Origin: Chytridium lagenaria
Lineage: Eukaryota; Chytridiomycota; Chytridiomycetes; Chytridiales; Chytridiaceae
Direction: 5' to 3'
Assembly: GCA_025449115.1 (NCBI GenBank)
Contig: JAHLKC010000026.1
Location: 124,001-188,000 of the forward strand
DNA length: 64,000 nucleotides
Below the pieces are notes generated by a model. That model had not been told where the DNA came from. It did not search any database and saw only the letters and a program-made list of their open reading frames with translations. A program made the position numbers and the translations under genes. Of this stretch, positions 4,953 through 62,700 are shown piece by piece. The number at the start of each line of letters is the position of its first letter. Position 1 is the stretch's first letter.

Positions 4953-6554
4953 TCAAGATGAAACCGCATAAGCCAATTCCGAGCTCCACGTCCGCGATGC
5001 TACCTGGTCTTTCTCCATGTCCATCCCAGAGAGCCATCGAACATTAGGCACTTCTTTGGGTGGGGTGAGGAGGCCAGAGGGGACATCGTAGTGGAGGTGA
5101 GGTGCGGCGTAAGCGTGGTGGCCGAAAAGGGCGGCAGAGAATTCATGGCCAGTGGTGATGTGTTGGCTGTTTAAAAAAAATAATGATAAGTAACCGCGTC
5201 AAGAAAACAAAAAGGAAATTGATGGATGGGTAAAAGAGACTCACTTTAGTTCTGACCATTTCTTGATAATGATGCTGGCCTTTAAGAATTTCGCAACACT
5301 GTACTTTGCAAACATCTGCTTTGGCGGATGACGCAATGAGTCGAAGATGTCGACAATACATCTTGCAAACATTTCAACAGGTGGTGTGAACCTCCTCCCT
5401 AGTATCGCCTCGCTCACCATAAAGCAAGACGCAGCAATGACACTAGGTCGGTAGTTCATAAATCTCCGATGAACAAGTGTGATCTCCATGATGTACCTTG
5501 CAATAGCACGAGTCTCTGGTGAAACATCCTTGTAGAACTTGAAGTTGGCCTTCAGGAAAGACTCTGCGGTAGGGTGGCCGAGAACAAAGTCAAGGTCGTT
5601 CAACATGGATTGCTCCATGGCCAGGTATTCACGTTCTAAAAAGGTATTGCAGCAAATGTAGATCAAATTCTTCAGGGTAGGAACTTTTCCGTGGTTCTCT
5701 TCGTATTTGGCCGCAACCCATAGCGCGGTGATTCCCAAAAGCTGGTACTGAGTCTTTGGGATGATACGCTTTGAGCAGACACGGTCAATAAAGTTGATGG
5801 TAAGGAAGAGAGTCTCTGGTCTCAAGTCGTATTCACTGTGAATCTCAATCAACCAAAAAATCAACGTCTTGCGAAGCTTCCAGGTGATCTCGTTTTGTGA
5901 TTCCATGTATGAAGGATTTGGCCAGGTCTTGGACTGAAGAGAAAGTTAGGCATATGTATGGGCGGGAATGTTTTATTACCTCCATGGTACTCATGGCTTC
6001 CATAATCTCATGTCCGTATTCCTCAGGTTCCGACGAATCCACAACATCTTCAAACGCCTCCAACAGTGCGTAATCACTTTGGTGCGTTTGCAGCGAGCTG
6101 TAACGGAGTGAAGTCGCGGTAGGCTTGGGGGGTTGGGCGAATATTGAAGGGAGTGTTGAAGTTGTAAAGTTTTGGTTCATAGCGTAGGTCTGGGCAGCTC
6201 GACGAGGGTCATAGGCGGTGGGAGGCATAGCGGGTTGATGAAATCCAGGCCTCTGTACATTCATCCCGGGACCCTGCGGCGGAGCTTTCAAAGAAGCCAA
6301 TTTTGTGTGGACTGGTTGATGTTGCTGGTCGGAATGTACCATATGGCGATGGGGACGGCCATGACGGACGTTGAAAACATGACATCCTCTGACGGGGTCA
6401 GAGTGCTGATGGAACCGGCCTGATTTCGAACAGCTTGACTTCTAGGTCCGAGAACGGCTGAGAGTGCGGGGTCAAGGGAAGAGGGAATGGCGGATGCGAG
6501 GGATTGTGGAACGGAGAAGTGGTTGAGGTAGGATGTGAGGTATGTTGCGGCCAT
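4953..6554 (-). CDS. A/B-type mitotic cyclin
   Basis: A cyclin subunit that activates and directs Cdk1. Reading the minus strand, an N-terminal disordered exon (from about 6554 to 5980) is joined by a GT-AG intron (5934-5979) to the cyclin box exon (5245-5933), then by another intron to the last exon (4953-5166). The junction gives KTWPNPSYM followed by LRKTLIFWLIEIHSEY, the first cyclin-fold helix, then LRPETLFLTINFIDR and LGITALWVAAKYEE. The second fold includes YRPSVIAASCF. The last exon ends in a TGA at 4953-4955. The N-terminal start at MAATYLTSYL is in a different frame from the later N-terminal stretch, so there is a one-base break or unrecognised small intron at about 6300-6400. I see no clear destruction box. 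It could be called A- or B-type. Confidence 0.88.
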
Positions 6555-17621: not shown

Positions 17622-17671
17622 GTGTAATAGTGGTGAATTGTCATGGAGGGTTTTTAAAAAAGTCTTGTGAA

Positions 17672-19212
17672 ATGAATCAAGAAGTGGTGGATGCTGTTGT
17701 GGAAGCCTTGAAGGCCGTTAGTGCTGCGAACGAAACCGATGTAGCAGCAGCGGTTAATAAACTGCGTCAGATAATAACAGACGAGCATGTTTATATCTTC
17801 ACAAGAGCGCTTTTACTGCGGTTGCAGGATGAAACATATGAAGGAAAAAAACTGGATTGATACTGCAGCGCATCTCTTTCGAACTGGAGCGCATCTTTGC
17901 GTCAAAGTCAAAGTAAACAATGGCACTTATCAAGACGCTGATCGCTGCCTCTAGTCAATTTGATGAAGCCATTTGCTTTGTGGGAAAACCGTCCACAGAA
18001 CTTGTGATGGCCATCACCAGAATATGTTCAAAAACCATCCAGGCTTCGGACATCCAGAAGGTTTTACTATATTAAAACGCAAACCGCTTACTCCTTTAGT
18101 TATTTGCTTTTTACTCCGACAGGGACCCGCCATCGGTTGAATATTTACGAGATCCTCGGTTTTTTGGTTGCAGGAAGAACAAGTTCAATAGGCTAATTGT
18201 GTTAGATTCGCTTTTACACGATGTCTTTGGAGTGAATGAGCCGAATATGACAGATCAGAAAATATGGTTGCTCGCGTACGCTTCTTGCAGCTCCAGTGAT
18301 GAAGAGGTGATTAATGCATTGAATGTAGATTAATGGAATAATGAATTTTAGTCATCCGGAAAACTTGAAAAGGCTATGGAATCGCTTCAGTTTATTCGGT
18401 CGGTTATTTCAAGATTTAATGCGTCAACGGACATGAGTGATGTTTTTATTGGCTTGTTGGACGCAGCAAAGTAATGAATAATTTGCCGATTGCAGAGATT
18501 AATGTCTGTAGAATTCCTATTGCGTGCCAAGCATTGCTTATTTGGATCCGAAAAGCTATAAGCGATCCCTCATTTTATGAGTCGAATGCAATGACGTTGT
18601 CGACAGAGCTTCCTATTCTATTCGAGCTTATGGATGAGGTACACAAGATGTCCGATAAAACACTGACGAAGGCGCTACAGATTGCGATTCAAAATCCACT
18701 TCAACGAGAATATATTTCATCTATTCTGGTAGAGAATTTGGATAGAGCGTTCGATACAGTATCACCATTGCAGGCAGTAAGGCTTTTCAGCCAAAAAGTA
18801 ACGCTTGCTAAATTTTTGTAGATCGAGATAAAAAAGAGATATGTGGATCGGATGGTTTTCCTCGTTAAGCTAGGATATGTAATGCCGATTTTCAATAGAA
18901 TAGACAACGATGAGAAGCTGGATGAGACGTTATCTGGCTATTTTTTAAATGAGGTGAATTCACTTCTTTTTTGGCCTTTTTTTAAATATGAACGTAGATA
19001 TTAGCAGTAACAAGCCCTCCTTACGATTCTACCATAATCTCCAAAATGCTCTCCCTTTTACCAAAAGTCAAAGTCGGATTAAACACGGCTATCAGCGAAT
19101 TTATTGGTTTGTGATCTGACTGCATTACACAAATGTCTAAACTAAAGCAGCCCATGTTGATACTCTGGGGCCGACTCTACAAAAACCGATTTGGAAAATT
19201 TGGAAATCGTGA
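17672..19212 (+). CDS. NELF-C/D (TH1)-like negative elongation factor subunit, N-terminally short
   Basis: In animals NELF-C/D (TH1) is a core subunit of the complex that pauses RNA polymerase II near promoters. The C-terminal exons match the family well: DRMVFLVKLGYVMPIF, then FLNEILAVTSPPYDST and ISEFIAAHVD, equal to the animal YVLPV, VLDVIAPPYTSD and EFIAHC blocks. Upstream are EHVYIFTRALLLRLQDE, DPPSVEYLRDPRFF, KIWLLAYASCSS and CRIPIACQALLIW, in family order. The first ATG after coatomer gamma (17672) aligns to roughly the middle of animal TH1, so the N-terminal third to half is missing or lies unseen. Frame breaks are needed near 17840 (A7 run) and 18475 (after GCAGCAA). One probable intron lies at about 17908-17950. 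It ends at TGA 19210-19212, 21 bp from the CFAP52 stop. Confidence 0.72.
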
Positions 19213-22856: not shown

Positions 22857-25694
22857 TTAAAGGCCATTGGCTTGCTTGAAAGAATCCCACGCCTTGTTCA
22901 AAACACCAAAAACGTTATTCGCAATCATGCGCTGCTCAACAGATGTATCAGGCTTAAGCTAAAAAACAAGTGGTTAATTCCTTCATCATGGAAAGTAGCC
23001 ATACCTTATCAGGATGAACCTTCGCAACGGCCTTCATGTACTTGATCTTAACTTGCTGGGGTGTTATCAATTCGGAAAGATTGATGGATACCCAGTTCGA
23101 TTCTTTCCATAAAATTGTGTCAAGGGACGACAGCAACGCTCTAATGTTGTTATCCTTGCCATTCTTCCAAGCGTTAATCTGATCTTGGTTAGAGTATTAC
23201 AAGATTAAAAAAGTTTACCCTTGCTTCGACATTATCTGTGAGTGAAATCTTTAGCGCTTCTTCTTTCTCCATCTTCTCATTCTTTCGCGAAGTTCTTCGA
23301 CCTTTTTCCCGTTGGGCGCGTCAAAAGATTGGCTTTAATGAGGTAAAAGATACGGGGTAAAAAACGAATGTTAATAACTAAGGAATCTTAAATAACAACA
23401 CCATCGATACTTACAAGTCTGCAAGAGGATTCGTAGGTTTCTTGAAGGGGCGTGGTTCGGGGCAGGACTTTGAAACGGGGACGCGCCCTGGGGACCCTCG
23501 GACTTCAGGCGACAGCGCTTTCTTAACGCGAGCAAGTCCTTGGCTAACTCCTTTACAGACGTATCCTTTGCAAGAATTGTTTCGTAGTCCGTCTTAGCCA
23601 AATCCCACTTCTCTTTCGCCTCATAAGCCGTAGCGCGCCGCAAAAGACTTTTCAAAATCTTCTGCGTTCAGAGATTGAACCTCGGTGCAATCACTGACCA
23701 CACCGTTGTGATCGCCCGTTTTGAGCCTGGCCGCAGCGCGATTGTTGAGAAAGCAATACGACCCCAGTCGCCTGCGGGTAGACAATTGAGAGCCTGCGAG
23801 TACAGCTCCTCGGCTTCACCAAACTGACCGGATTTAAATTTATCATTACCCTTTTCTCTAAACTCCTCGGAAGCCTTAAGCTGATTCTGAGATGCAAGGG
23901 AAACCGGTTGAGGTTTTGGCTTTTCCGGAATTTTCGAAAATGTAGGGGAGGGTACTTTCGCGGCTGGCGAATCCCACTGCATTTCACGGAACTCTGGCAT
24001 TCCAGAATCCCATGACTTGGGTTGGGTTTCTGCTACCTTTGATTCCCACCGAGCCTGACTTCCGGTCTGATCAGCAGAAGGAGCTGTCTTGCGGACAGGT
24101 TTGCGAAGGGCTTCCTCATTGTCAGAATAATTTGCCTCCCATTTCGACTGGCTCGGTGCGGAATCAGAATAAGGCGTTGTTTTACGAACAGGTTTCCGAA
24201 GTGTTTCCTCATCCGATGAGGAGTCGGTTTCGTACTTCTTATAGGTTTGCCTTTCATCTCCATTATCCTCCTGCCACCTGTCAGACCAGAAGCTCCCACC
24301 TTGCGCACCTCCTTTATCAGGATATGGCCCTCCAGCGCTTCTTGATTCTGGCGCAGCATTAAAAGAATCGACTTGCTCCGAAATCTTCTCAGAAGCTTTA
24401 CTATAAACCTCAGTGATTTTCTTTTTGGAGAACTCGAAAACGGATTTAGCGTTTGTGAAAACCGATTTGCTGATACTGCTGGCAGTGCTGACAACCTGGG
24501 ATTGCAAAGGCGCGTTGTGATCCCGAGCGCTGCCGGCATCAAATCGAGATGCAGACGGCCTCCGTATCGAGGTGTTCTGCATAGCATCGCGGTTCGCCAT
24601 CAGCAAGTCGAGACCATCCCAACATTGTTGTTGGACGCTTCCAAAGCTATTGCAGCGCTCTTTCGATCAAATCCCATTTCCTCCACTTGAGTAAATCAGA
24701 CCATCAATGTTGTCACCCCTGTTCCTCTGTTTGCTCCTTCCACGTCATCATCAGACGACTCGTCATCACTCGAGTCACGGTAGGTTGAATTAAATTCCGG
24801 CGATGCCGGCTTTCTAGGCTTATCCAGTGGCGACTCGCGCGATTGCGATAGAACCGGGGAAATGTCTGGTTGACGGTATGACTGCGATGGGGATTGTGTC
24901 TGCTTTTGATGGGGCCGAGCTGGTTGAGGTGGTGACGGAAGTTCCGATTTTGGCGGAGGCTTTGATTCGAATATCGAAAAATCAAAGGGATCCTGCTGCG
25001 ACGAAGTTGGGGGCAGCGATACGGAGGTGGAAAGAGGAGATGGTTTCTCTTTAGCAAGGTAATCAAGGTCCCAGATATCGGCGGTAGGCTGAGATGCGGC
25101 TTGCTGTTGAAATCTGGGAGGCTGGGACGAGATTTGGGACTGTAATGTTGGAGCGGGGTTCTTTGGTTGGCTGTTGTTACCAAGTAAATCGTCAAGAGGC
25201 GAGACTGGCACAGTTGGTTTGGCAAAGCTTTGATAGCCACCACTGACCGGAATGTTCGATGTTGCAGGCATTGCGGGTTGAGCCCGAAGTCCAAAAGAGT
25301 TTGGGGAGATGGAGCGAGGCGGTGTTTGGCCTGAAGGCACCATGCAGCAGATTTTTGAGATAGGGGTTGATTCTGAGCCATCTCCTCTGCTGATCCAATG
25401 TCATGGATGAGAGAGAGGGTTTGGAGTTGGCTCCAAAGTTGACTAATCCTCCAAAGACCTCATTGGGATCCTTCATGGAGGGAGAAACGGGCCGCGTGCC
25501 GGTGCCTGTGTTGTATGAAGGAGATCTTCATGAGCAGGGGATGATCCGTAGCTTGAATGTGAAGGAATGGGAGAGCCCCGCAGCGGAGGAGTGTTTGGAT
25601 TAGACGACCTCATTTGCGCAGAGAACATTGATCCATCAGGGGCGTTCCCCCGAGCTGTTGTTGGGGGAATCATGCCTGTTTTGCTGATAGCCAT
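22857..25694 (-). CDS. SWA2: Swa2/auxilin-like clathrin uncoating co-chaperone (UBA-TPR-J)
   Basis: Auxilins bring Hsp70 to clathrin coats and trigger uncoating. The long N terminus is Pro/Ser/Gln-rich, with short clathrin/adaptor-like motifs (DPF, DLLG, WDLDYL). A UBA-like segment follows (MGFDRKSAAIALEASN, about 24640), then TPR repeats (EEFREKGNDKFKSGQF, LYSQALNCLP, LLRRATAYEAKEKWD), and a C-terminal J domain (LITPQQVKIKYMKAVAKVHPDK, containing the HPD triad) ending at TAA 22857-22859. UBA, TPR and J in this order is the layout of yeast Swa2. Frame breaks lie near 24610 and 23750. The start could be 25694 or an ATG at 25710 in another frame (MSGGGYGYQQNR). It is head-to-tail with mL43, whose stop is 50-70 bp upstream. 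Confidence 0.85.
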
Positions 25695-60496: not shown

Positions 60497-62700
60497 TGGA
60501 GGCCCTCCCACCGGAGCTCTGCGAGCTCCTTGCACTAGAGCTAGACCCAGCATCAGCCTGCAAACTGAACTAGTATCAAGGCGTCTTGGAAGAACCTGGA
60601 TTCATGCCGTTCATTCCGTTTTGTCAACGCCCACATTGAACACGTTGAAAGCAGAGACATGGAATGGTCACTTTGCGTTAACTCAAAGCCAGCGGTTTCC
60701 AGTCTCTACCTGGCTGCCTGCATTGAAATGTTTGTCTGGAATTGCAGTTTGATATCTGCTGTCACAAAGAAGGATTGTGGGTGCTCTCATAGTAAAAAGA
60801 TTCGGTGCGTTCAGCATGGAAATTGGATGAGAGATGCTTTCATCATCTTGTTTGATCGTGGGTATCGACCCGATCCTTGGAATTTAGGATTTGCGAGACG
60901 ACTCGCTGGATTGAATTTGCTGCATAGAGTCTCCCCTGATATGATGCTCTCGCTGGGTTGCTTTAATAGGTGTGTTCCACGATGGGCTTATAATCAAATA
61001 TGGGCGATTCTCGTTGACGCTATTGACTGGGACAACGTTGAAGTGATTCGAGCGTTTTGGGTCGGAAGAATTCATGTCTTGCTGCAAGGGTCTCGAGACA
61101 TTATTGATGACCTCCTGTTTCGAGCTGCACGAAATAAGAATCTGAAGATGATGCGAGTGATACTGGAAATGGAGGAGCGTTACCAAGTTGTTGTGCCGTT
61201 CCATCTCATTCGGCATAGACCCGATTTTAGTGAGCTGCTTGATTTTGTGGTCTCTTGTAAAAGGTTGAGACTCAATTGGACACCAACGCGAGAAGAGTTG
61301 AGATATGTTGCTGTCACGCAGACATCCGATAAGGATGTCGACTTTTGGATGAAGAAGCTTTTTGCTGCTCCTGAATCATTCCACGGAGTTCTTTTGGAGG
61401 ACTGGGTCCCTTCTGCTTGGAGAAACAGATTTGTGGAAATTGCAATGGCGAATGAATGGAAGTACAGTGATGTCTTGAAACCGTCACATTGTTGATTGAG
61501 CGAGACCTCTATGAACCAAGCGCTCATAATCAAGATGCTCTAGGTCTTGCTGCTACAGCAGGACAAGATGTATTGACGTATCTTGATCGAATGTTAAAGA
61601 ATCCAAGGTCAGATGTCGTTCGTGGAATGAAGAAATGTCTTTGCGTTGCACTGGAGAGGCCGGATATAGAGGCATGCTGGCAGCTTCTTTCTGATCCTCG
61701 TCTACCTAATACAATCCGCAGTTCCGAATTTTTACCTACTCTGCTCGGCGTTGCAAGGCGTGATCTCACCTTTCTCATCAGGATATTGAAACATCAAAGA
61801 TTCTTGGCGTTAGAGGGATCTGCTCGAGTGCTTTTGGAACGGGCAGCTTTGGGATATTTGACCAATAATACTCTGGTCCGTGAAGAAATTAAAGAACAAC
61901 CTTTTTTGCCCTCAATGGGGTCTACTCCGACAGTGGTAAATGGAGAAGCTTTTAATAACGTGAATGCGATTAAGAAGTCTTCTGTTGATGGAAAGAATGA
62001 TTTTACTGTTTTGAGCCGGTTTCTTTGGATCAGAGATCATGTCTTCTCATCACAGAACCTGTCTGCTGTTGACTTGCATAATCTACTCAGCGTCTCTATC
62101 TCCAACATATCCGCTCGAAAACATGAGTCGTCGCAGTGGGAATCTATCGCAGAAAGCTTAATTATGAAGCTGACCAAGGGGAAGATTGCAGAAATGGACC
62201 GCAATTTAAAGCATAAACTCAACTCTGCGATGCTCGGGAAAGTTCTAAGTCTTTGTTTGGAACGAAGATGGGACAAGATTACTTTAGAAATGATCAATCA
62301 CCCCATACAGCGCCTTTATGTCACCAAAAACCATATTTTCGCCGCAATATCCACTCAGGACAAGGACATAGTCAGAGGAGTTATTTCAAGCATGCGAGAA
62401 TGCTCCACCACATTGATGAAGCTTGTCATTGACAAGGAACGCAAACCCCTTTTTGTAGATGATTTTGGACCCGACATGAAGCTTCACACTGACATTCAGC
62501 TTGTCTGTTTTGAGCGTTTCTGGGTTTCAGCGGCGAGGGAGTGTGGATTCTTTGATCTGCATAATCCATTTTCAGCAAGGTTTTGGGATAGCTTGGAGGA
62601 TGATTGTTTTTGTGATGGATTTTATCGAAGGTGGACCAAGAAGAATGATCTCTGTAGGAGGGTGTGGGGAAGAGACTTGCAAGACGAATTCACGTTATGA
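60497..62700 (+). CDS. Large F-box/ankyrin-like protein, unknown target
   Basis: The ATG at 60497 reads MEALPPELCELLALELDPAS, which resembles an F-box start (LPxEL-x-E-L-L). A frame break or short intron follows near 60565 before SWKNLDSCRSFRFVNAHI. The rest, about 600 residues, is helical with irregular ankyrin-like units: AARNKNLKMMRVILEME, DALGLAATAGQDVLTYLD and CVALERPDIEACWQLLSD. A one-base break at about 61490 joins the two halves (SDVLK to TLLIERDLYEPSAHN). The stop is TGA 62698-62700. Similar large F-box plus repeat proteins are common in zoosporic fungi and usually act in SCF ubiquitin ligases, which is my inference here. Confidence 0.6.

Follow-up and report, generated by a model that had tools for sequence, protein, structure and literature searches.

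The locus and its gene model

The window analysed here is a 64,000-nucleotide stretch (C26:124001-188000) of the 41.9 Mb genome, in 356 contigs, of Chytridium lagenaria (Chytridiomycota, Chytridiales), and it carries on its forward strand, at 17672-19212, a split gene for a homologue of NELF-C/D (TH1). Such a homologue in an early-diverging fungus had been proposed by a sequence-only reading, and the profile check bears this out. With the final model, spliced and read through from 17672, the match to Pfam TH1 (PF04858; curated cut-off 24 bits) reaches 148.8 bits over profile positions 201-574 of 579 and is far beyond chance. The best matches of this protein among solved structures are NELF-C/D chains (E 3.6e-29 for human NELF-C/D), and the match to the human chain, residues 229-581, is a single collinear stretch. 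A six-frame TH1 search of the whole genome gave one candidate with one match, which is this locus (35.7 bits, E 5.8e-8). Taken singly, three of the five open frames at the locus match the profile, in profile order, at 306-358 and 408-466 with 17.7 bits each and at 482-536, which alone exceeds the cut-off with 24.8 bits; the other two do not match. The five sequence blocks on which the proposal had leaned are all present and in order (LLAYASC, ALLIW, LGYVMPIF, LAVTSPPYDST and FIA(A)HVD), the last reading FIAHVD under the preferred exon joint. We regard the identity of the locus as a NELF-C/D homologue as practically certain.

Two protein searches supplied the relatives used below. The first found three proteins among 2390 candidates, and the second, with a chytrid alignment as query, found four among 7997, namely three chytrid proteins and one from Naegleria; both reach only proteins sharing exact words with the query and hence do not show that other fungi are without the gene. 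P0001, recorded as 'TH1 protein [Chytridium lagenaria]', covers 75% of our spliced protein, at 100% identity, and is the same gene in its public model. P0002, from Phlyctochytrium planicorne, is 66% identical over 303 aligned residues and ends early, without the C-terminal end; the public record wrongly calls it 'beta ketoadipyl CoA thiolase, th1', whereas it is a TH1/NELF-C/D protein (94 bits). P0003, from Irineochytrium annulatum, is 45% identical over the aligned residues, part of the middle being unaligned. The NELF-C/D of Naegleria fowleri (P0124, 639 aa) matches TH1 over 20-574 with 444 bits, nearly the whole length of the family, and shares 87 of 375 residues (23%) with the C. lagenaria protein, as a member of the same family. 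In the columns of the common core, human and Naegleria are identical at 119 of 353 positions, against 87 of 353 for human and chytrid. On these columns Naegleria is closer to human than the chytrid is, although fungi are the nearer relatives of animals.

The preferred model has ten exons, with about 1.1 kb of coding sequence and nine GT-AG introns of 39-45 nt each. Introns 2-9 reproduce the joints of the public protein P0001, and intron 1 rests on the relative P0002. The features of the locus are as follows.

17622..17671, no strand: 50-bp gap from the stop of the upstream adaptin-family gene to the ATG, with no room for a domain of about 150 residues
17672..19212, forward strand: NELF-C/D (TH1) gene, ten exons, first ATG at 17672, stop TGA at 19210-19212, identified by profile and structure-chain matches
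17672..17912, forward strand: exon 1, with the first ATG at 17672; codes for the HEAT core at its N-terminal end, facing human residue ~198 onward, and holds the frame break
17845..17851, forward strand: seven consecutive A, with a shift of reading frame; the P0002 and P0003 models are continuous here
17913..17954, forward strand: intron 1, 42 nt, GT-AG; joint backed by P0002 (ELERLYSADSGPFDEAI against ELERIFASKSNQFDEAI)
18061..18099, forward strand: intron 2, 39 nt; joint as in P0001 and P0002
18167..18205, forward strand: intron 3, 39 nt; joint as in P0001 and P0002
18307..18351, forward strand: intron 4, 45 nt; joint as in P0001
18471..18511, forward strand: intron 5, 41 nt; joint as in P0001, P0002 and P0003
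18639..18680, forward strand: intron 6, 42 nt; joint as in P0001
18777..18821, forward strand: intron 7, 45 nt; joint as in P0001 and P0003
18954..18997, forward strand: intron 8, 44 nt; joint as in P0001 and P0003
19107..19150, forward strand: intron 9, 44 nt; joint as in P0001

From its very first residues exon 1 can be aligned with P0002 and, more loosely, with P0003, and a TAA in intron 1 is what appears at first sight to be a premature stop. Neither this stop nor the frame break in exon 1 had been mentioned in the sequence-only reading. Within exon 1 the frame breaks at the run of seven A: the protein reads MNQEVVDAVV...EHVYIFTRALLLRLQDETYEG before it and ...TGLILQRISFELERIFASKS in another frame after it, and the homologues of Phlyctochytrium (RLSKETSNGKNTGLVLQRIS) and Irineochytrium (RLRKETHEGKKTGYILQRIA) run continuously across the same place. 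Among the one- and two-intron GT-AG models listed, none that would bridge the break preserves homology. The most likely cause of the break is a homopolymer sequencing slip, not gene decay, because nothing else in the gene is seen to be broken. The break is also the likely explanation for the late start of the public model P0001, whose N-terminal MAITRICSK lies behind it and corresponds to residue 99 onward of the read-through protein; the public gene model of the C. lagenaria TH1 protein, starting 98 residues late, is corrected here. A start at ATG 17920 (MALIKTLIAASS...), which by eye resembles human TLALGTAAS, was ruled out, P0002 placing this stretch in intron 1. An earlier six-intron model from the same ATG, which did not cross the frame break and reached 101.5 bits against TH1, was replaced by the ten-exon model; it had taken part of intron 1 and introns 3 and 6 as coding, and had set the acceptor of intron 9 three bases early.

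The missing N-terminal domain

Compared with human NELFCD (PDB 5l3x, 6gml and 7ycx), the C. lagenaria protein has nothing opposite residues 1-197 save the initial methionine, and it is also without the K371-K374 loop. The sequence-only reading had the animal N-terminal region missing, as found here, and had placed the first ATG near the middle of the animal protein, which is too far along: its counterpart is residue ~198 of the 590, only one third along. What is conserved is the C-terminal core, human ~198-581, and what is lacking includes the domain of human residues 36-182, which is the piece of NELF-C present together with NELF-B in PDB 8jj6, the crystal structure of NELF-BCE (PMC11881899). 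Within the missing part, crosslinks have been reported from NELF-C K125 to NELF-B and from K66 and K125 to NELF-E (PMC4940160). The chytrid protein has nearly the same extent as the NELF-C construct, residues 183-590, that was crystallised with NELF-A 6-188 (PMC4940160).

The N-terminal domain is very probably absent from C. lagenaria NELF-C/D. Just 50 bp, as had been noted beforehand, separate the upstream stop from the ATG, so that a missed 5′ exon is unlikely; one exon of the upstream gene matches Adaptin_N, and this adaptin-family gene we take to be that of coatomer gamma. The models of P0002 and P0003 begin at the same place, and exon-by-exon searches of the genome with the TH1 profile and with human and Naegleria NELF-C queries found neither the N-terminal domain nor a second TH1 place elsewhere. 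Between the two options that had been offered, a shortened protein or a missed 5′ exon, these results favour the former. Naegleria keeps the domain, with 58 of 147 residues (39.5%) identical to human over 36-182, and because of this the domain is likely ancestral and its absence in chytrids a loss, as judged from three chytrid and two outside species.

Nine basic residues are listed in the RNA-binding patches 1-4 of human NELF-C (PMC4940160). In C. lagenaria one of the nine is basic (R419, as K); P0002 and Naegleria likewise have one, and P0003 has two. Because Naegleria too keeps a single position, the patches are a mark of animals more than of NELF, with nothing special about chytrids. E491 and K494 are conserved across the four proteins.

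Partner subunits and the rest of the window

For NELF-B, an exon-by-exon search of the genome with the PF06209 profile, made without a NELF-B positive control, gave no candidate at E <= 0.001 or at E <= 10. The human NELF-B query found no match in the genome in an insensitive search, and the human NELF-C query does match the NELF-C locus. A protein search with human NELF-B, whose best 120 of 819 rows are vertebrate where named, some being unnamed, is uninformative on fungal NELF-B. Control searches did recover some intron-rich genes of this genome, but NELF-B is not among these controls, and absence is accordingly not established. One control gene, of the MIF4G_like family, matches twice with equal exon-by-exon scores (C5:510558-511191 on the reverse strand and C192:43532-44165 on the forward strand), which suggests either a recent duplication or that some regions stand twice in the assembly; the NELF-C locus, unlike this gene, matches once in the assembly.

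For NELF-A, an insensitive search with the PF23553 profile found nothing in the genome. Human NELF-A 1-209 gave a single match (E 0.37), whose surroundings are adenylate kinase-like by eye, and a HEXIM search gave a single match below the cut-off (E 0.02) in a serine/proline-rich frame; both are put down to chance. A match to Spt4 is present in the genome.

Elsewhere in the window lie a cyclin box exon at 5241-5945 on the reverse strand (Cyclin_N 136 bits, Cyclin_C 49 bits), two open frames (234 and 248 aa) that overlap at 24696-25459 on the reverse strand, in different frames of the same strand, and two long open frames of 308 and 409 aa at 60569-62700 on the forward strand, which overlap by 25 bases and have no Pfam match at E <= 0.001.

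Possible roles of the NELF-C/D core

The occurrence of NELF-C/D in a fungus is not new, because orthologues of NELFB and NELFC have already been stated for Fungi, Protista and Viridiplantae (PMC10591015), and three chytrid copies are already on public record. NELF-B and NELF-C/D are described as widespread in eukaryotes and as lost in Schizosaccharomyces pombe, Saccharomyces cerevisiae, Caenorhabditis elegans and land plants, with NELF-B and NELF-C forming an ancient core of the pausing complex that is lost in both yeasts (PMC11482795). The evolutionary point of the sequence-only reading, that a copy in an early-diverging fungus bears on when the pausing machinery was lost, has in part been published (PMC10591015, PMC11482795). 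No description of a chytrid NELF-C, or of the loss of its NELF-B-docking domain, was found among the open-licence papers listed, supplements aside.

We favour, with a probability of about 0.6, the reading that C. lagenaria NELF-C/D, lacking the domain 36-182, is a NELF-B-free remnant of NELF acting on RNA polymerase II (Pol II). In human complexes NELF has two lobes, AC and BE, and two binding modes: in the first the secondary channel of Pol II is blocked by the AC lobe, and in the second this lobe has moved away while the BE lobe is turned to downstream DNA (PMC11881899). On the way to these chytrids the N-terminal domain would have been lost, and the remaining core would still take the fold of the NELF-A-binding lobe of animals, the one that blocks the channel in the first of these modes. 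Together with DSIF, the core would then bring at most the AC lobe to Pol II, with no NELF-B/E lobe, and with Pol II-DSIF, perhaps through an undetected NELF-A-like partner, it might modulate early elongation weakly and could slow it no more than slightly. Given the absence of the domain, function without NELF-B seems somewhat favoured, and a role of the core outside pausing is possible. A wider scenario can be put forward only tentatively, its odds being somewhat below even: chytrids of the Chytridiaceae would have no NELF-B in the genome and would keep a live NELF-C/D shorn of the interface to it, an intermediate of a lobe-by-lobe dismantling of NELF in fungi in which NELF-B went first and the NELF-C core last, and the core would have its own NELF-B-independent task, whether on Pol II or elsewhere.

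Several points weigh against a NELF-B-free remnant. The absence of NELF-B rests on exon-by-exon searches without a positive control of the family, in a kingdom for which NELFB orthologues have been stated (PMC10591015), and NELF-A, the expected partner of the core, was not found by the insensitive searches made for it. In human, helices 12′-13′ and 18′-19′ of the core also crosslink to NELF-B (PMC4940160), and therefore loss of the N-terminal domain need not end all contact with NELF-B. The shared start of P0002 and P0003 could be a shared prediction limit of faulty public models, and the frame break may be genuine, in which case the protein would be made from a later ATG. Finally, the relative-rate count, with 77 differences unique to the chytrid against 37 unique to human in the columns common to human, Naegleria and C. 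lagenaria (chi2 14), comes from one alignment of about 25% identity and includes the read-through.

The strongest rival, to which we give roughly one chance in four, is an ordinary if diverged NELF-B/C core complex, in which the domain is not needed or has been replaced, NELF-B is present but escapes the searches through divergence and splitting by introns, and Pol II is paused weakly by the complex. The wide occurrence of both subunits, the stated fungal orthologues, the core crosslinks and the uncontrolled NELF-B searches all speak for such a complex, but none of the models of the three chytrid species examined has the docking domain, which is conserved between human and Naegleria, and human NELF-C finds its locus where human NELF-B finds nothing. 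That the domain is present and was missed, because it lies in a far-off 5′ exon, in a gene that is split or in a gap of the assembly, is improbable; the evidence does consist of gene models, one assembly and exon-by-exon searches, yet the short distance to the upstream gene, the common start of the two relatives and the lack of any N-terminal match or second TH1 place are against it. Less probable still is a decaying pseudogene in a lineage losing its last NELF subunit, with a genuine frame break, for which the break itself and a faster change than in human could be cited. The break sits in a homopolymer, and about 1.1 kb of coding sequence with no other lesion, nine in-phase introns and the 66% identity to P0002 argue against decay.

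Should the NELF-B-free remnant be the correct reading, a fungus with NELF-C but without the domain that docks NELF-B would separate the two core subunits, and would offer a natural experiment on the ability of the NELF-C core to act on Pol II by itself. It would also help to date the fungal loss of NELF, of which the chytrid protein may represent a half-way step in the loss of the pausing machinery.
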